A stretch of 35,957 nt of DNA, taken from a virus. The notes under the pieces are model-generated. The model saw only the letters and a program-made list of their open reading frames with translations, made no database searches and had not been told where the DNA came from. Shown here piece after piece: positions 241-35,679 of the stretch (positions within the stretch are counted from its first letter, which is position 1; each line of letters starts with the position of its first letter). The translations under genes and the position numbers were made by a program. The stretch spans positions 1 through 35,957 of IMG/VR virus record IMGVR_UViG_3300042453_000814, one strand, 5' to 3'.

Positions 241-378
241 ATGAAGAAATTTTCTATAGCAATATTAACAAATTTGTTATTAGTCAGTAGTGTATTTGCT
301 TGTCAAACCACTACAATCATTGTTAATGGTAAATTAACAACTTGTACCGTTTGTGGTAATGTAGTTAATTGTTTCTAA
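241..378 (+). CDS. Small secreted Cys-rich peptide, variant A
   Basis: A 45-residue protein with a Lys-containing N-terminus, a hydrophobic stretch (about residues 4-18) and a cleavage-like SVFA-C junction, so it probably crosses the inner membrane and is cut before C21. A lipobox is only weakly met. The mature part is short, rich in Thr and Val, and carries four Cys including a CTVCGN motif, so disulphides or metal binding are possible. ATG 241 is chosen because an AAGGA sits just upstream; a longer in-frame start at 179 would overlap the upstream gene. A close paralogue or allele is at 35023-35160. Function unknown. Confidence 0.7.
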   Translation: MKKFSIAILTNLLLVSSVFACQTTTIIVNGKLTTCTVCGNVVNCF

Positions 379-462
379 CCCCCAGATGAGATCGGCATCA
401 GTAGGCGCAATGCCTACACCCTTCACAAGGAGTGCTACCCCCCTACCGATTAGGGTAGCTTT
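379..462 (+). promoter_or_regulatory. Structured leader RNA with SD-bridging hairpin, variant A
   Basis: Non-coding stretch between the Cys-rich peptide and the nuclease-fold gene. Elements in order are GATCGG (390-395); hairpin 1, GTAGGC 401-406 with GCCTAC 412-417 and loop GCAAT; the Shine-Dalgarno AAGGAG (427-432); and hairpin 2, GCTACCC 434-440 with GGGTAGC 453-459. Then come three bases and the ATG at 463. The hairpin 2 loop holds CCGATT (446-451), able to pair with the upstream GATCGG. If hairpin 2 folds, the SD lies effectively about four bases from the AUG; unfolded it is 30 bases away. The same architecture with covarying stems occurs at 35161-35241. Confidence 0.65.
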
Positions 463-882
463 ATGAGCTTCCAAAAAGACCTACAGAGAGGCTTAGAAGT
501 AGAAGAAATAGTGTTGGGTATTCTGCGGAAGAAATATCCTTCTGCAAGCCTTATAAATGCGTTTAAAGGCTATGATATTTGGATTCCTGAGATTGACAAA
601 GCAGTAGAGGTCAAGTACGACCCGATGAGCCAAGAGACAGGCAATATTGTCATTGAGATTGAGATGTACGATAAACCCTCTGGACTGATGGCAACACAAG
701 CTGATTTCTGGGTTTTCTACGATGGGGAGATGTTTGTAATCATGCCAGTCAAGCATATATTTAAGTGCATATTCGACTGCAAGTTACAGTATGTGGAGTT
801 TGTTGGAAAGGGAGACACCCGATCCAAGAAGGCATTTTTAGTAGATAAAAACACCTTGTTTAAGTACGGCAAGATACTATGA
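463..882 (+). CDS. PD-(D/E)xK nuclease-fold protein, variant A
   Basis: A 139-residue protein. An N-terminal helix with E13-E15 precedes GYDIWIP (D38) and AVEVKYD (E49, K51), which matches the D...ExK active-site layout of PD-(D/E)xK nucleases (Holliday-resolvase/restriction type). The family assignment is from motif spacing only. It lies downstream of a structured leader, and its stop overlaps the stop of the convergent endolysin gene by six bases. The equivalent position at the other contig end (35242-35679) holds a protein that is not recognisably the same sequence. This slot therefore seems to exchange genes between strains. It could be a DNA repair or processing enzyme, or a weapon against competing phages or plasmids. 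Confidence 0.65.
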   Translation: MSFQKDLQRGLEVEEIVLGILRKKYPSASLINAFKGYDIWIPEIDKAVEVKYDPMSQETGNIVIEIEMYDKPSGLMATQADFWVFYDGEMFVIMPVKHIFKCIFDCKLQYVEFVGKGDTRSKKAFLVDKNTLFKYGKIL

Positions 883-3848: not shown

Positions 3849-5399
3849 TTACTGTTGTTCTGTCTGAAATTCACCAGATAAAAGACCTCTTAGCCCTGTA
3901 ACAGGGACATTATAAGTTCTTGGTTGGAGTTCTGGTGCTCTACCCAAGCGCATCATATCCGCTAGATTCTGAATAGATGCTCTACGCAAACTTTCTGCTG
4001 CAACTCTTGATCCTGCTGCGCCTGTGGCTATTGGAATACCAATAGAAGGCTCTAATGCCATAGCACCACCTGAAAATATTCCTGATACTGGTCCAGTTGG
4101 AGCAAATCGACCAAAGAACTTTAAAAGATTTTGTGTTGTGCCACCTTTAGCTGCTTCTGTAATTGCTGCTTGTTCTTCTTTTGTAAATAAGCGCATTTTT
4201 TTGTTATTTTTGGCTAACTGTCTTAATTGTTGAGCCATTGAGTTTTCTTCACCTGATGCAGTAAATTTAGACCGATCTAATTGAGCATTATTGAGCATAT
4301 CCTCAAAAATCTCTGCTTTCTTTAGTTTGCCATAGGATGCTCTTGCGCTTTTCCAAGAATCAACTGCTTCTTTGCTTCCAGAAATAAATGCAGAATCAGG
4401 CGCATTCAAAATAGCATTATCAAAGTCATCTAAAAGAATTGATGCCAATCGTCTTTCTTTTGGTTTTTCGCTTGCTTGCCCACCTTTAATCATTTCTCTT
4501 AAAGACTGTAATTCTGTAAAGTCTTTTGGTATTGCAGGATTTGTTAGTTCTTCAATAGCACCAGCAATAGTTGGATAGCCTTTAGGTGTATAACCTTCTT
4601 TTCTAAGGTCTTTTCCAGCCTTTTCCATTTGAGTAATAAATTGGCTAGACTCTAACAACACACCAGACTCTTGAGCCTTATTAAACAGATTTGTAGATTC
4701 TTGAGCCAAACTTTCTTGTGTAGGAACATTTTTAGCTCTTTTGGTAATTGTTGCTCCAAATGGCGCAGCAGTTGTAACTCCAGCGATCATACCTGCTAAT
4801 GGGCTACCTGTAGCCTCTGTAACATATTGGGCTGCTGCTGCCGATGGTGCAGATGCTGCTACTTGTGCTTTAGGAGCTTCTGCTAACCGCTTAGATACTT
4901 CTCTTGTAACAGGACTAACCGCTTGTTGTCCTAGTTTCATAAGAGCAGGTAACTGAGCCAATGTAGAGGTAATACCGCCTGCACCTGCCTCAATCATTCT
5001 TTCGCCTCTGCTTTGTGGCTCTGCAAGACCAATTTCTGTCATTGCTCTGCTTGCGACTTGGCTAGGCATCTGTAATTGTGGAATCTCTGTGCCTGCGACT
5101 TTATTGACACCACCAGAAATCATATTTATCAATGAGTTAAGAGCATCACCAATTGGCAAAGCCATAGATCCTACTAGTGCGCCTGCTGGACCAGCAACAG
5201 TTCCACCAATAGCAGCACCAGGCACAGTCTGAGCCATGCCTCTAGTAACTATTTCTGCTGTTCTAGCTGCTGTGCCTTTTTGTGGCTTTTCAGCAGCAGT
5301 AGCCTCATCATATAGTTTCTTGGCTGCTTTGCTGACATCTGTTTCGGACATAGAGTCTGGAAATTCGACTTGTCCTACTTTTGGAATGTCGATAATCAT
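3849..5399 (-). CDS. Large internal virion (ejection) protein
   Basis: A 516-residue protein beginning IDIPKVGQVEFPDSMSE, a short N-terminal domain seen in phage internal virion proteins. A Gly/Ala-rich hydrophobic region follows (PGAAIGGTVAGPAGALVGSM, about residues 60-90), with a second one at about 190-215, and then a long helical Lys/Glu-rich region. Amphipathic and Gly-rich membrane-seeking segments in a podovirus tail block suggest it is ejected with the DNA to form the trans-envelope channel. It overlaps the previous gene by ATGA. The role is inferred from context; no catalytic motif was seen. Confidence 0.65.
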   Translation of the reverse strand: MIIDIPKVGQVEFPDSMSETDVSKAAKKLYDEATAAEKPQKGTAARTAEIVTRGMAQTVPGAAIGGTVAGPAGALVGSMALPIGDALNSLINMISGGVNKVAGTEIPQLQMPSQVASRAMTEIGLAEPQSRGERMIEAGAGGITSTLAQLPALMKLGQQAVSPVTREVSKRLAEAPKAQVAASAPSAAAAQYVTEATGSPLAGMIAGVTTAAPFGATITKRAKNVPTQESLAQESTNLFNKAQESGVLLESSQFITQMEKAGKDLRKEGYTPKGYPTIAGAIEELTNPAIPKDFTELQSLREMIKGGQASEKPKERRLASILLDDFDNAILNAPDSAFISGSKEAVDSWKSARASYGKLKKAEIFEDMLNNAQLDRSKFTASGEENSMAQQLRQLAKNNKKMRLFTKEEQAAITEAAKGGTTQNLLKFFGRFAPTGPVSGIFSGGAMALEPSIGIPIATGAAGSRVAAESLRRASIQNLADMMRLGRAPELQPRTYNVPVTGLRGLLSGEFQTEQQ

Positions 5400-6589: not shown

Positions 6590-7510
6590 TTATCCTAGTA
6601 AAGAATTTGGATTTCTTGTTGCCATTCTTGGTGTAATTAAGCCTAATAGACCAGAATAATCAACTGCGCCTTGAGGCATTCTTGTTATTTGTGGTTGTTG
6701 ATATTGTGGCATTTGTGGCATCTGTGGTCTTGGTGTTAATAGTCCACTAGCCAACCTAGCACCTTGTAGTGCTTGTGCTGCTGTTAAACCTTTCTTTGGC
6801 AATCCAAGAGCTTTAGACTCAATGCCTGTTCCTGCTAACTCAGCAGGTGTGTAGGAATAAGAAACTGTTTGCACAATTTGATCTGGAGATAATCCACTAG
6901 CTGCTAACTGAGCCATATCTTGTGCTACAAAAGAATCCATACCAGTCATTGTTAGATTCTGTGCAATTTGATCTGCACCTAAACCTTGCTGTGCAAGATT
7001 AACTGCATCGAATGCCTCTGTATATGGTAGTGCTGTGCCAATCTCTGCTGCTGTTATTGCAGCTTCTGGTGCGCCTGCTAACAATGTAGCACCAATAGTG
7101 TCTGCTAAAGCACCTTCTCCAGCAAGAGTAGCTAGACCTGTTTCTGTAGCTGCTGTAAATGCTGCTTCTGGTGCTGCCAATGCCGCTAATTCTGGTAATA
7201 AATATGGAGCTGCAATTGCTGCTGCAACAGGAGCTACAACTTTATAACCGCCTAAAGGATCTACAACTTCTTTCTCAAAAGAAGCTCCAACATCACCGAT
7301 AGCCTGACCAACATCCTCTACTGCGCCTAAAATTCCACCACCACCGCCTGATGTTCCTAGAACATCGGAGATTGGGTCTGTAACAGCAGAAATAATATCT
7401 CCACCACCACCGCCTTGTGGTTTAATCTTTCGATCTCCAATGTGCTCAAAGGCATTTTGTGGCAAGTCTGGAATATCCATTAATGCACAAGCTCGGTTAT
7501 TAAATCTCAT
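6590..7510 (-). CDS. Ala/Gly-rich internal virion protein
   Basis: A 306-residue protein with two poly-Gly linkers (QGGGGG, SGGGGG) and a long Ala-rich hydrophobic stretch (APVAAAIAAPYLLPELAALAAPEAAF, about residues 90-115) that could enter membranes. The C-terminus is Pro/Gln-rich (RPQMPQMPQYQQPQ). No motif of known activity. It is sandwiched between other putative ejection proteins and overlaps the GNAT-like gene upstream by ATGA, so it is most likely a virion protein delivered with the genome. Confidence 0.6.
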   Translation of the reverse strand: MRFNNRACALMDIPDLPQNAFEHIGDRKIKPQGGGGGDIISAVTDPISDVLGTSGGGGGILGAVEDVGQAIGDVGASFEKEVVDPLGGYKVVAPVAAAIAAPYLLPELAALAAPEAAFTAATETGLATLAGEGALADTIGATLLAGAPEAAITAAEIGTALPYTEAFDAVNLAQQGLGADQIAQNLTMTGMDSFVAQDMAQLAASGLSPDQIVQTVSYSYTPAELAGTGIESKALGLPKKGLTAAQALQGARLASGLLTPRPQMPQMPQYQQPQITRMPQGAVDYSGLLGLITPRMATRNPNSLLG

Positions 7511-10257: not shown

Positions 10258-11927
10258 TATCTAGTTCCTAGAGGGTTCATGTCTACATCAATTCCTACTG
10301 CATTTGTCCATTGACCTGTAGGAGTTAATTGTAGACGATGATACCGCCCAACACCACGAATAGACACTCTATTTTCTGCATCTGCTGCGGTCTGAGAGCC
10401 AAATACTACCTGCTCGCTTAATAGTCTGCGAGAGAATAATGCGACTGATCCAGAGCCACCATCTACAATTGGTTTTGCCATTGTGATTGCAGAGGTTGTG
10501 CCAGGCATCTCAATATCACCTGTTTCAATAATCGCTGTATTGCCATTGCCTGTAAAGGTAACAATCTTTGTATTTTTAACACCAGCAAACTGCATCTTTC
10601 CACCAAGCCAGACCCTATCATCAAAGCTAGACATGATCTGCTCTAAGTTGCCGAATACATCCATACCCTCTAAATCAAAGGATGGTGTAGAAGAAGAAGC
10701 TACTCGGCTTGCATCGGTTGTGCCGCTAGTCCACTTGCCTGTCTGGTAGTTGTAGATAAGCAATTTATCTACAGTTGCAGAGGATTGGCTTGCATAAGCC
10801 CAAATTACTAGCTTTCTAAATGGGTCTACTGCTGCTGACATTAAGCTTAACGAACCTTCGTCTACATCGCCAAAGAAATAGCGGTTTACTTTCTCATTGC
10901 CTATAGGAACAAGTTGCTGTCCATCACAGGCATAAAAGCCATCGTCTGACAGAAAGAAGCTAGTTCCACCATACTGCACAATAGAGTTAGCCTCATAGCA
11001 TCCAAGGTTGCGACTGATATTGTCGAACTGAAAAACTAAAGGACTGCCAACATATGACATACGATGGATTGATCGATCCATGAAAACTAACCCAAATTCA
11101 CCCCCAGTTACACCCACAATTGAGCCACCATCGGGAATGTCTTGGAAATCTGCCTGAGTTGTCGCTGAGTTAGCCCAATTGGACTCATCTCCTAATGCCG
11201 ACCATTGAACCCTGTATGGATAAACAGTCGAGCTATTTACATAAGCTGATACTACAAAATCTCGAACTACTGTTACATACCGAGACTGTGGAGCATCTGC
11301 TGCTAAGTCTTGGAAGGTTGTAGAGTTATTTAAGTTATATCCCTGCAAACGATTACCACCATTGGCAGCAATTAAGACATTGCCAAACTGTGTAAATCGC
11401 CATCTTTGGTTGGTAGGAGTTGTGTATTGAAAGCTAACTGTGCCTGTATCAACAGTTGATCCAATATTGCCACCTGCCTGAGGATAGGTAAAGGTTGTAG
11501 TTGTTGGAACTGTGTCTACAGTAAAAGTTCCATTAACTGCGGTTGTAGAAGTTGCTGCTACTGTTACTGAATCACCTACAGAAAAGCCATGAGCAGCAGA
11601 TGTAGTAATGGTTACTACTCCGCTAGTCTTAGCGACATTGGTGATTGTTCTACTAGCCTTTACTACCGAATCCAAAGATAGATCGCCTGTATCTAACTTA
11701 AATAACTTTGTTGCACCACCAGCAAAAACGACTGTAGCTCCTGCTGCGGTTTTGCCTGCGACCACATTGTTTAGGTTCTCTGATGCTGCGCCAGAGTATT
11801 CCTCGGCTGCATTGATAGCACCATATCCTACAGCCTTAGAAAAGACATTTTCTGCCCTTTGCAAGCCATTGGTTAATCCTGGCTGATCTGGAGTCCACTC
11901 TCCGAATGAGATACGATTTATTGCCAT
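10257..11927 (-). CDS. P22 gp10-like tail stabilisation/hub protein
   Basis: A 556-residue beta-rich protein. MAINRISFGEWTPDQPGLTNGLQRAENVFS is the typical start of podovirus packaged-DNA stabilisation proteins (P22 gp10 group), with beta-propeller-like repeats following (RWRFTQFGNVLIAANGGNRLQ, FGLVFMDRSIHRMSYVG, SFFLSDDGFYACDGQQLVPIG). A domain with Ser/Thr repeats (about 90-165) looks like an inserted Ig-like or adhesin-like module. It would seal the portal/adaptor after packaging and carry the tail tip. Residues of about 422-440 (FGNLEQIMSSFDDRVW) recur in the neighbouring protein at 11918-12802. Confidence 0.75.
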   Translation of the reverse strand: MAINRISFGEWTPDQPGLTNGLQRAENVFSKAVGYGAINAAEEYSGAASENLNNVVAGKTAAGATVVFAGGATKLFKLDTGDLSLDSVVKASRTITNVAKTSGVVTITTSAAHGFSVGDSVTVAATSTTAVNGTFTVDTVPTTTTFTYPQAGGNIGSTVDTGTVSFQYTTPTNQRWRFTQFGNVLIAANGGNRLQGYNLNNSTTFQDLAADAPQSRYVTVVRDFVVSAYVNSSTVYPYRVQWSALGDESNWANSATTQADFQDIPDGGSIVGVTGGEFGLVFMDRSIHRMSYVGSPLVFQFDNISRNLGCYEANSIVQYGGTSFFLSDDGFYACDGQQLVPIGNEKVNRYFFGDVDEGSLSLMSAAVDPFRKLVIWAYASQSSATVDKLLIYNYQTGKWTSGTTDASRVASSSTPSFDLEGMDVFGNLEQIMSSFDDRVWLGGKMQFAGVKNTKIVTFTGNGNTAIIETGDIEMPGTTSAITMAKPIVDGGSGSVALFSRRLLSEQVVFGSQTAADAENRVSIRGVGRYHRLQLTPTGQWTNAVGIDVDMNPLGTR

Positions 11928-12802
11928 TGTGAGTTTCCGCTAGATATGTCTGTCCATACAGTAGTTGTTGGTGCTGTAGCTGTCCAAGATTCTGATCCTG
12001 CCGATGCCACAGTCCAAACTGTTGCACTCGGTGCTACACCTGTCCAAGCCTCTGTTCCTACTGTTTCGTCTGTCCAATTATCGCCTAGAACTCTGCCAAA
12101 GCAATTAACTAGGGCTATACCATTTACTGTTGCTACTGCGCTGTAGATTGCTACAGGATTTGCTGTTACTGTTGCAAATGCGGTTACTGAGGCATCGCCA
12201 CTATATTCAACACCGCCTAGTGCAGTTACTGTTGCTGTTGCCGAGATACTGCCAGAACTTAGTCTTTCTCGAATGGCTGATGCAGAGGCAGACCCTGATG
12301 CTGAAATAGAGCCAGAGCTTGTTCTAATCCTGATAGCATCTGCCGATACTGTGCCTGTAGCTGAGACTGCACCAGATCCTGCAAATATTCCATATCCATT
12401 TGCCGAGACCACAGCCAGAGCCGAAATAGCTCCTGAGCTTGTTCTAACCCTGATCGCTTCTGCATTTACTGTTCCTTGGGCTGTTACTGAGCCAGAGCCT
12501 TGTCTGATTGCAAAGCCGTTAGCGGTTACTGTGGCATCTGCTGAGATTGCGCCTGATGTGCTTCTAATCCTATAAGCATCGGCTGTTACTGTGCCTGTGC
12601 CTGTTACTGCGCCTGACGCATTTCTTATCGCATAGCCATTAGCACTAGCAGTAGCGACCCCAGAGATGCTGGCATCTCCATAGAATATGCAGGTGCTAGT
12701 CGAGTTCCATGCAGGATCATCAAATGAGACAAGGATCTGTTCAAGAGTTCCGAACTGATCGATGTTGTCAATTGTAAATGCGCCACAATAATCGGCTGGC
12801 AT
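11918..12802 (-). CDS. Repeat-containing beta-solenoid tail protein
   Basis: A 294-residue protein in three parts. Residues 1-42 contain FGTLEQILVSFDDPAW, shared with the gp10-like protein. Residues 43-222 are nine repeats of about 20 residues, consensus SG(A/S)(I/V)(S/T)AxxTVxAxAIRIR. Most are arranged as alternating A and B units, giving a 40-residue super-repeat. The C-terminus has a Trp repeat (AWTGVAP..TVWT, SWTATAP..TVWT, QW). Short Gly/Ser/Val/Ala repeats suggest a beta-helix shaft or spike. It overlaps the gp10-like gene by ten bases, so they probably act together in the tail. Confidence 0.7.
   Translation of the reverse strand: MPADYCGAFTIDNIDQFGTLEQILVSFDDPAWNSTSTCIFYGDASISGVATASANGYAIRNASGAVTGTGTVTADAYRIRSTSGAISADATVTANGFAIRQGSGSVTAQGTVNAEAIRVRTSSGAISALAVVSANGYGIFAGSGAVSATGTVSADAIRIRTSSGSISASGSASASAIRERLSSGSISATATVTALGGVEYSGDASVTAFATVTANPVAIYSAVATVNGIALVNCFGRVLGDNWTDETVGTEAWTGVAPSATVWTVASAGSESWTATAPTTTVWTDISSGNSQWQ
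12137..12676 (-). repeat. In-gene tandem repeat, 60-base units in a 120-base period
   Basis: Nine 60-base units encode the 20-residue solenoid repeats of the tail protein. The strongest similarity is between units two apart: the blocks starting at 12301, 12421 and 12541 align over most positions, as do 12361, 12481 and 12601. The unit of duplication was therefore 120 bases. Copy number could vary between strains through recombination or slippage. Confidence 0.75.
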
Positions 12803-25779: not shown

Positions 25780-25853
25780 TGGTGCTCCCTGACAGAATCG
25801 AACTGCCAATCCATGATTACAAATCAAGTGTTATACCATTTAACTAAGAGAGC
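25780..25853 (-). tRNA. tRNA-Thr(UGU) with encoded CCA
   Basis: Full cloverleaf on the minus strand. The acceptor GCTCTCT/AGGGAGC has one wobble pair. The D-arm is GTTA/TAAC with GG in the loop. The anticodon arm is CTTGA/TCATG with one T-T mismatch and loop TTTGTAA (anticodon TGT at 25819-25821). The T-arm is GGCAG/CTGTC with loop TTCGATT. The discriminator A is followed by genomic CCA (25780-25782). It decodes ACA. The first tRNA base is also the last base of the upstream gene's TAG stop. Confidence 0.93.
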
Positions 25854-26623
25854 TATTCTGTGCACTCACAAGGCAAATCAAAACCAATAAAAGGCAATGT
25901 CATTTGTGATTCATGCATCCTTATTACATCACTCCAAGAGTAGTTTCTGCCAAGACCTTTAATTGTAGTTAATTCTGCATTTTGTTCTATTTTTAATGCC
26001 CTTTGTATCAAATCTGGGTGTTTCTCATACAAATCAATAATTTCTTTTGGTCTGCTTGATGGGCAAAAAAAACAAGCTGATTTGCTAGGCATTTTTACTC
26101 TTGCTTTTTCTATCTCCTCAATACATTCTTCTCTTTCCCAACCCCACTCAATGAGTGGATATTTGTTTTCATACATATTGTCTACTCGCTTCATTGCATT
26201 TTCCATTCTGCGAGTTTCTCCTGCATCGTAACCAATATATTTAATACATTTAAGACCTTGATCCCATGCATCAATAGCTGGCTGCCATTGCTTTATATAT
26301 TTATGTTGAGGTCTTATTTTGTAATGATCCGAACACCTTTTGAATCCATAAGCGATGCTTGGCAATGCTTTGTTATTTAAACATTCTTGCTCTAAGGTAA
26401 CCACCGCATCATCTTTTGTTTTTCTTACAACAACAATTTCTGGGTAATTTTTATTTTTTAACCATTGGCTAAAGTATTCTATATGCTTGTAAGTTTCTGG
26501 TCTTTCAGCACCAGTATCCGCAAAAAGAATTAAATCTATTGGTTGGTTTCGATTTACAAGACCAATAACCATGGCTGTAGAATCTACTCCACCACCAAAA
26601 GCAACAATATGAGGAACATTCAT
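25853..26623 (-). CDS. PP-loop ATPase / PAPS reductase-like sulphur-transfer protein
   Basis: A 256-residue protein. The PP-loop is FGGGVDST (9-16). LILFADTGAERPETY follows, then the FKRCSDHYKIRP block (C97) and a C-terminal CFFC (184-187), as in phage proteins annotated as phosphoadenosine phosphosulphate reductase/DndC-like. It would adenylate a substrate and transfer sulphur or act on nucleotides. Sulphur assimilation, DNA phosphorothioation or tRNA thiolation are alternatives, and no partner genes decide between them. Its stop is fused to the tRNA 5' end. Confidence 0.82.
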   Translation of the reverse strand: MNVPHIVAFGGGVDSTAMVIGLVNRNQPIDLILFADTGAERPETYKHIEYFSQWLKNKNYPEIVVVRKTKDDAVVTLEQECLNNKALPSIAYGFKRCSDHYKIRPQHKYIKQWQPAIDAWDQGLKCIKYIGYDAGETRRMENAMKRVDNMYENKYPLIEWGWEREECIEEIEKARVKMPSKSACFFCPSSRPKEIIDLYEKHPDLIQRALKIEQNAELTTIKGLGRNYSWSDVIRMHESQMTLPFIGFDLPCECTE

Positions 26624-35022: not shown

Positions 35023-35160
35023 ATGAAAAAAGTGATTTTAGTAGTAGTAACAAATATGTTACTAATTGGTAGTGTATTTGCTTGCCAAACAACTACAATT
35101 GTCGTTGGCGGCAAAATAACCACCTGCACAGTTTGTGGTAATGTTGTAACCTGTATGTAA
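35023..35160 (+). CDS. Small secreted Cys-rich peptide, variant B
   Basis: A 45-residue protein: signal-peptide-like start (KKVILVVVTNMLLIGSVFA), mature part CQTTTIVVGGKITTCTVCGNV followed by TCM. The AAGGAG (35010-35015) fits ATG 35023 with seven bases of spacing; ATG 35017 is too close. About three quarters identical to the variant at 241-378, with all four Cys kept. A periplasmic or envelope peptide is likely; target unknown. Confidence 0.72.
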   Translation: MKKVILVVVTNMLLIGSVFACQTTTIVVGGKITTCTVCGNVVTCM

Positions 35161-35241
35161 ACCCCCAATGAGATCGGCATACGAGGTGCAATGCCTCATT
35201 TCCCTAAGGAGTGCCACCCCCCTTCCGATCAGGGTGGCATT
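35161..35241 (+). promoter_or_regulatory. Structured leader RNA with SD-bridging hairpin, variant B
   Basis: Elements: GATCGG (35172-35177); hairpin 1, GAGGT 35183-35187 with GCCTC 35193-35197 and the same GCAAT loop; AAGGAG (35206-35211); hairpin 2, GCCACCC 35213-35219 with GGGTGGC 35232-35238; three bases; ATG 35242. Loop CCGATC (35225-35230) is fully complementary to the upstream GATCGG. Compared with 379-462, one base pair in each stem has changed on both sides and the pseudoknot pair G-U has become G-C. Confidence 0.65.
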
Positions 35242-35679
35242 ATGAATGGCTCAATGTCTTATTCTGAGCGACAAAAGGTAAAGAATAGGGCTGAGTTCCT
35301 TTTTGAGCTATATTGTGCCGAAAAGGACTATAAAGTTACCAGAGTGGGGTTTGATGAGAAGAATAATAGTGTAGATAACTTTTATTATTTGAATCCTGTC
35401 TTGAGGAATTTGCCAGACTATGTAGTGAATACCAATAGTGGCACTTGGGTGGTGATGGTAAAAGGCACAGTTAATATCAAGCAAAAAGAGATTGAACTGC
35501 TGCCTAAACTAATGGATAGTTTTGATAGCGATAAAGCTAAGTTGGTTTATGCCTTTTGTTTCTTGGGAAAAGAACCAAGACTAATTTTTCCACAGAAAGT
35601 AGAAAGTCTGTATAGAAGTGCCACAGATAAGCAATGGCAAGATGGAGTTGTTTATCGGTCATTGGAGATAGAGGCTTGA
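35242..35679 (+). CDS. PD-(D/E)xK-like protein, variant B (different from variant A)
   Basis: A 145-residue protein. RAEFLFELYCAEKDYKVTRVG at the N-terminus, then LPDYVVNTNSGTWVVMVKGTVN has the PD-(x)n-(E)xK geometry (P58-D59, K74), but M72 stands where E is expected. Catalysis is therefore doubtful or the ligand differs. ATG 35242 is used because it matches the leader/start arrangement of variant A; the frame is open back to 35191 through the leader. Same slot as 463-882 but no clear sequence similarity, indicating gene replacement. Its last 21 bases overlap the convergent endolysin gene. Confidence 0.6.
   Translation: MNGSMSYSERQKVKNRAEFLFELYCAEKDYKVTRVGFDEKNNSVDNFYYLNPVLRNLPDYVVNTNSGTWVVMVKGTVNIKQKEIELLPKLMDSFDSDKAKLVYAFCFLGKEPRLIFPQKVESLYRSATDKQWQDGVVYRSLEIEA

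Follow-up and report, generated by a model that had tools for sequence, protein, structure and literature searches.

Introduction

Bridging hairpins, which shorten the way from a distant Shine-Dalgarno (SD) sequence to its start codon, are known from a few phage genes, chiefly genes 38 and 25 of phage T4 (PMC3014915). The hairpin cuts the SD–AUG spacing from 22 to 5 nt in gene 38 and from 27 to 11 nt in gene 25, the gene 25 arrangement being common to close T-even phages only (PMC3014915). The leader described here resembles these "split" ribosome binding sites in the remoteness of its SD and in a stable hairpin giving an effective spacing of 4–12 nt. It differs from them in that the hairpin is kept without any SD in about 30 loci, the D2 lineage, and in adding a loop pseudoknot, a second hairpin, an overlapping short ORF and a variety of downstream genes.

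Other described systems share single aspects of this arrangement. The leader of T4 gene 32 also carries a pseudoknot upstream of the start (PMC3014915). There the pseudoknot lies 67 nt upstream, whereas the bridging hairpin here abuts the AUG, and the A+U-rich operator repeats of gene 32 are absent here. In T4 the SSB gene itself is controlled; here an SSB-like gene lies just upstream and the controlled genes are nuclease-like, so that autoregulation of the gene 32 kind is not found. Pseudoknots also control the tisB and timP toxin mRNAs, where the leader pseudoknot is required for translation of a potentially harmful product, presumably for loading of 30S/S1; unlike the present case, these are bacterial chromosomal toxins with an antisense RNA and with the SD in a stem (PMC11228461). 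In termination-reinitiation the ATGA overlap is a classical coupling signal (PMC6728339), and an overlap or close spacing of stop and start is found in all 48 alleles scored here, although the upstream ORF has only 24–26 codons and is itself structured RNA. A search of the open literature for similar phage leaders returned such precedents and no description of the leader itself, an absence that a search of this kind does not prove.

The leader and its two copies

The window, the whole stretch of 35,957 nt that was analysed, comprises positions 1–35,957 of viral record IMGVR_UViG_3300042453_000814. It holds two copies of the leader, with the following elements (ATG1 is the start codon of the short upstream ORF; PK5 and PK3 are the 5′ and 3′ strands of the pseudoknot).

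Copy 2
35158–35160 (+): stop codon of an upstream 45-aa ORF, 7 nt before ATG1; spacing alike in most relatives
35168–35245 (+): short upstream ORF, ATG1 at 35168, translation MRSAYEVQCLISLRSATPLPIRVAL*; stop TGA at 35243–35245 overlaps the gene ATG
35172–35177 (+): PK5, GAUCGG, complementary to 35225–35230
35183–35197 (+): hairpin P1, GAGGU / GCAAU loop / GCCUC; covaries
35206–35211 (+): SD, AAGGAG, lying 30 nt upstream of the AUG; T 35212 comes next
35213–35238 (+): hairpin P2, GCCACCC / 12-nt loop CCCUUCCGAUCA / GGGUGGC; 7 bp
35225–35230 (+): PK3, CCGAUC, in the P2 loop
35242 (+): AUG, preceded by AUU, 3 nt after P2
35242–35679 (+): family B gene, 145 aa, PD-(D/E)xK-like by alignment of its AF2 model

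Copy 1
386–466 (+): short upstream ORF, translation MRSASVGAMPTPFTRSATPLPIRVAL*; stop overlaps the ATG at 463
390–395 (+): PK5, GAUCGG, pairing with CCGAUU at 446–451
401–417 (+): hairpin P1, GUAGGC / GCAAU / GCCUAC
427–432 (+): SD, AAGGAG, followed by T 433
434–459 (+): hairpin P2, GCUACCC / CCCUACCGAUUA / GGGUAGC, followed by UUU
451–453 (+): UAG in the gene frame, within loop and stem of P2
463–882 (+): family A gene, 139 aa, phrog_13596, motif GYDIWIPE..AVEVK

An earlier note on this DNA had described the layout AAGGAG, 1 nt, a 26-nt hairpin, 3 nt and AUG, which is exact in both copies; the second occurrence that it placed at 427–463 does run from AAGGAG (427–432) to the AUG at 463. Its estimate of about 30 nt of linear spacing, reduced to about 4 nt when P2 is closed, holds for both copies, and so does the stem pair that is T-A at 436/457 and C-G at 35215/35236. 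T4 gene 38, which it named as precedent, is an apt one, and so is gene 25 (PMC3014915). The idea of two hairpins plus a pseudoknot was likewise sound, since GATCGG at 390–395 and 35172–35177 matches, as its complement, CCGAU[U/C] of the P2 loop.

An SD followed by 0–3 nt, a stem of ≥6 bp and an AUG at most 9 nt further on is found at two places in the window; in 100 first-order Markov simulations the mean was 0.11 and the maximum 1. As isolated 39-mers both copies fold into P2, one at −11.1 kcal/mol (z −1.4) and the other at −16.6 kcal/mol (z −3.0).

The same note spoke of two diverged leaders. These are two natural alleles of one leader and not two leaders of one genome: the contig ends, 1–1175 and 34782–35957, are diverged copies of one locus, with stretches 71–89% identical and with gene A behind the leader in copy 1 and gene B in copy 2. 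Relatives of 34.7–36 kb each have a single leader copy. Given these diverged end repeats and the single copy in relatives, the window is probably a circular genome, permuted in the contig and closed with reads from a second strain, so that its two ends differ in strain. Several leaders per genome were considered and rejected, as the model R1, run on 13 long contigs, gave one strong match per contig and two in the window only.

Distribution among phages

A DNA pattern scan retrieved 13 contigs and a relaxed version of it 116. As a guard against circularity, loci were also collected blind to the leader, through the proteins of genes A, B and D and of the upstream exonuclease. By this protein-based retrieval the leader is present at every A or B locus with enough upstream DNA except one, L100, where a 53% relative has an ordinary SD and no leader. 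The leaders before genes of families A, B and C (the A/B/C set) comprise 49 distinct sequences, 31 of which were aligned for the counts of invariance and 48 of which served for those on the short ORF. In the D lineages the motifs were chosen by a script demanding complementarity, though at the homologous position.

The phages that carry it form a group found mostly in fresh water. In the isolate phages searched no leader-like DNA was found; in three isolates with B relatives (Venkman, P19250A and DC33) the gene overlaps its upstream gene. Copies in host genomes were rejected, the 14 pattern matches in genome contigs being chance-like. Compared with Rfam 15, the window gave nothing above the gathering threshold except one tRNA, and weak matches only in E-value mode; six related loci gave no match. 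The window also holds a tRNA gene at 25783–25853 (−), adjoining a PAPS-reductase-like ORF (25853–26623, −), and degenerate repeats with a 60-nt period at 12239–12616 within the ORF 11918–12802 (−), which probably encodes a repeat-rich structural protein.

A conserved pseudoknotted fold

Among the A/B/C alleles every cell of P2 is paired (100%), and pairs 3, 4, 5 and 7 show compensatory changes. Over all lineages such changes affect five of the seven pairs (3, 4, 5, 6 and 7), again with no unpaired cell, and the stem takes ten sequences, to which L431 and L408 add further ones. The pairs of P1 co-vary in A/B/C (G-C/A-U and others) around the invariant GCAAU loop, while most D-lineage leaders have no P1. 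The four best-covarying column pairs of the 49 A/B/C alleles all lie in P1 and P2, and pair 23–33, in P1, is the strongest of all.

Significance was judged against a null in which the same substitutions are re-dealt over the same tree, a procedure that is R-scape-like and not R-scape itself. On a single tree, an assumption that phage recombination violates, the best A/B/C column pair has a null-maximum probability of 0.002, and once every lineage is included, the three highest-ranking of the 1,326 column pairs are P2 pairs 3, 7 and 5 (E for the structure set 3e-4, 3e-4 and 2e-3). Covariation events are few because the lineages are closely related. As controls, none of 500 shuffles and no slid version matched the observed pairing.

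The pseudoknot exists in five haplotypes, all complementary and all at one fixed loop position: GATCGG/CCGAT[CT], GATCTG/CAGATC, GATAGG/CCTATC, GAATAG/CTATTC and GAATGG/CCATTC. A sixth, GATCGA/TCGATC in L431, is weaker, coming from the search that demanded complementarity, and the singletons L057 and L132 have one mismatch each. Pair 1 is G-C, G-U or A-U in A/B/C. With few changes to score, the statistical support for the pseudoknot taken alone is moderate, the best pair reaching E 0.13 in the all-lineage alignment. A competing pairing, GGCAU/AUGCC, was discarded, being lost in the L030 group (GATCGGGACA), where GAUCGG is kept; a −1 frameshift pseudoknot was discarded as well, there being no slippery site in a usable frame.

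On this comparative evidence P1, P2 and the pseudoknot are a real conserved structured RNA. Covariation, which the earlier note had proposed from two leaders, thus extends to a wider set of homologues for P2 and P1, with every pseudoknot haplotype complementary. Since wobble variants are always G-U on the + strand, we infer that the molecule under selection is the mRNA, that is, the sense strand.

The Shine-Dalgarno sequence and the gene start

AGGAG is invariant across the 31 aligned A/B/C leaders while the sequence of P2 changes, and the gap between SD and P2 is always 1 nt. An AUG follows P2 in all A/B/C alleles, and many of them (copy 1 of the window, L001 and L095 among others) have an in-frame UAG at the P2 loop, which places the gene start at this AUG. 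A real start elsewhere, which would have overturned the earlier reading, was rejected for A/B/C on the P2-loop UAG and the constant AUG. An ORF from an AUG in the P1 loop was rejected too, as its frame differs among alleles (12- versus 14-nt linker).

Most alleles have no nearer consensus SD, the exception being the L008 group, with AGGAG in the 3′ strand of P2. In eight alleles (L006, L019, L023, L066, L071, L074, L088 and L172) an 8-nt insertion separates P2 from the AUG by 11 nt instead of 3, leaving 12 nt of effective spacing. It occurs on several leader backgrounds, and the short ORF then stops 10 nt short of the AUG. In nested folding predictions the GG of the SD is mostly paired with an upstream CCUU tract. 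This pyrimidine tract before the SD (window 419–432, for example) can pair weakly with AAGG in most alleles, and CCUUCAC is conserved even in leaders that have no SD.

P2 is more stable where an SD is present, at −8.6 to −11.9 kcal/mol in the SD-bearing lineages versus −5.5 kcal/mol in D2. In the D2 loci AAGUUUU stands in place of AAGGAG, and the pseudoknot and P2 are kept beside the AUG, which lies 0–6 nt from P2. Inside this SD-less clade the pseudoknot is itself compensated (GATAGG/CCTATC, GAATAG/CTATTC and GAATGG/CCATTC), and the fold is kept with neither ATG1 nor short ORF. D2 phages do use SDs elsewhere, as an SD-like tetramer precedes, by a crude estimate, 30% of ORFs in D1/D2 loci (46% in A/B/C loci) against 10–18% in controls. 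In these SD-less relatives the fold must act without an SD.

The D1 and L424-type loci have the element inside ORF D, which starts at ATG1 or at an ATG between PK5 and the SD. In D1, where ATG1 is the sole start opening ORF D, two P2 pairs have changed on both sides, the changes on the 3′ side being synonymous. Five further loci (L394, L403, L408, L426 and L429) carry the element without an adjacent nuclease start. In L394 and L403 the element is followed, after a terminator-like hairpin, by an HNH endonuclease-like gene that has a separate SD; L408 has the new P2 GCAGAC/GTCTGC with the pseudoknot GAATAG/CTATTC; in L429 the gene that follows is preceded by a separate SD, AGGGGG.

A leader tied to its locus

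Throughout the lineages examined the gene order is RecE-like exonuclease, SSB-like gene, (45-aa exported peptide), leader and nuclease gene, with a lysozyme (endolysin) gene on the other strand behind the nuclease slot where seen. The exported peptide (window 241–378 and 35023–35160) has conserved cysteines and a weak resemblance to DUF2574, and occurs in many, not all, relatives.

At least four nuclease-like gene families, A, B, C and D, stand behind the leader. The nuclease fold named in the earlier note is clear for C, with PF24579 at 30.4 bits (cut-off 25) supporting PD-(D/E)xK. For B there is a moderate hint of such a fold, as its AF2 model (mean pLDDT 55) aligns best with VRR_NUC 4qbn (Z 7.6) and Hjc resolvases, the matches being mostly nucleases. 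Family A, phrog_13596, is assigned by motif only, its AF2 model being poor (pLDDT 42), and D matches PF24579 weakly, at 14.4 bits and below the cut-off of 25.

In L117 (element 7361–7440, − strand) the nuclease gene has been cleanly lost and the leader lies beside its old 3′ end, and in L177 (element 4459–4537) an unrelated PDDEXK_14 gene, C, replaces A and stands between the leader and the remaining 3′ end of A. Four families behind one leader, this loss and this replacement indicate that the leader is bound to the locus rather than to any single gene, an argument against autoregulation by the product.

How the leader may act

The leader probably governs both the timing and the manner of translation initiation. 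The reading we favour, at roughly even confidence, is that of a cis-acting pseudoknotted leader which controls the translation start of the nuclease slot, P2 bridging the SD to the AUG. As P2 lies exactly between SD (1 nt) and AUG (3 nt), a 30S subunit bound at AAGGAG in the window lineage would have no way to the AUG except over the stem in its closed state, which would bring the spacing down from 30 to about 4 nt, and the pseudoknot, by holding the P2 loop, would steady or gate that conformation. The fold, its sense-strand RNA nature, its place, the start codon and the conserved SD are established; bridging itself, gating by the pseudoknot and any signal are what we infer. The constant AGGAG and 1-nt gap beside a variable P2, the likeness of the spacing to that of T4 genes 38 and 25, and the greater stability of P2 in SD-bearing lineages speak for bridging. 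Against it stand the compensated fold of the SD-less D2 leaders, the intragenic element of D1 and L424-type loci, the elements without an adjacent start, the alleles with 11 nt between P2 and AUG, the predicted pairing of the SD's GG and the short ORF. The earlier proposal that folding of the hairpin governs initiation thus fits the window lineage and does not extend to the whole family.

A conserved short ORF whose stop overlaps the gene AUG or lies at most 10 nt from it makes translational coupling a serious rival, which we nevertheless regard as somewhat unlikely. Ribosomes would restart at ATG1, about 7 nt past the upstream stop, melt P1, SD and P2 over 24–26 codons and restart at the gene AUG. 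P2 and the pseudoknot would block independent starts, and the nuclease would then be made only in step with upstream translation. The short-ORF frame is kept in 48/48 A/B/C alleles, the stop lying at +1 (32), −2 (8) or −10 (8), counted from the gene ATG; ATG1 is present in 45 of the 48; and indels preserve the frame (79 versus 82 nt; −2/+2 in L096 and L071). L345 has its own version of the short ORF, ending CTATGA, and in D1 ORF D opens from ATG1 alone. From SD to P2, substitutions are 24 synonymous to 10 nonsynonymous in the short-ORF frame, versus 3/33 and 5/29 in the other frames, a third-position bias that is at most suggestive of translation, the sites being few and also structurally free. 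However, ATG1 has no SD, with CCCCC in front of it, and the L030 group has GUC in its place; the AGG codon is never swapped for another arginine codon, as if kept as SD, and D2 retains the fold in the absence of both ATG1 and short ORF. Bridging and coupled restart may also operate side by side.

We consider it improbable that the knot is an operator, binding a phage or host protein or a small RNA through GCAAU and CCCU contacts and so repressing or releasing translation, in the way of T4 gene 32. GCAAU in P1 and CCCU in P2 are single-stranded and invariant beside freely changing stems, the fold is kept with or without an SD, tight control would make sense for nucleases, and the tisB and timP leaders offer a parallel; but no candidate ligand was found, the sharing of the leader by at least four different genes makes autoregulation by the product unlikely, and most D-lineage leaders lack P1.

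The probability is slightly lower again that the knot itself, at 0–4 nt from the AUG, loads the 30S subunit, P2 replacing the SD:anti-SD duplex, so that an SD-less start would be achieved by structure alone, in the manner of a bacterial IRES. A DNA-level hairpin serving as a recombination boundary for nuclease swapping is very improbable: A, B, C and D have been exchanged right behind the element and the gene of L117 cleanly lost, but the strand-specific G-U wobbles point to RNA, the SD and AUG geometry is kept, and ordinary homologous recombination within the conserved leader accounts for the swaps. That the likeness is due to chance, or to common ancestry with no selection on structure, is hardly credible, for although alleles are similar within each lineage, compensatory double changes occur at P1, P2 and pseudoknot pairs and same-tree null alignments seldom score as high as the best pairs of P1 and P2, which refutes it for these two hairpins.

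Conclusions

The leader represents a covariation-supported, pseudoknotted form of the bridging hairpin, spread over more than a hundred phage contigs. Natural alleles without an SD, without P1, with 8 additional nucleotides or within an ORF already offer the means of testing whether RNA folding can substitute for the linear spacing of the SD, or even for the SD. Should the knot itself load the 30S subunit, the SD-bridged form of the window would be one solution of two that can stand in for each other. The leader is kept while the nuclease behind it is swapped, a regulatory element that evolves independently of its cargo.
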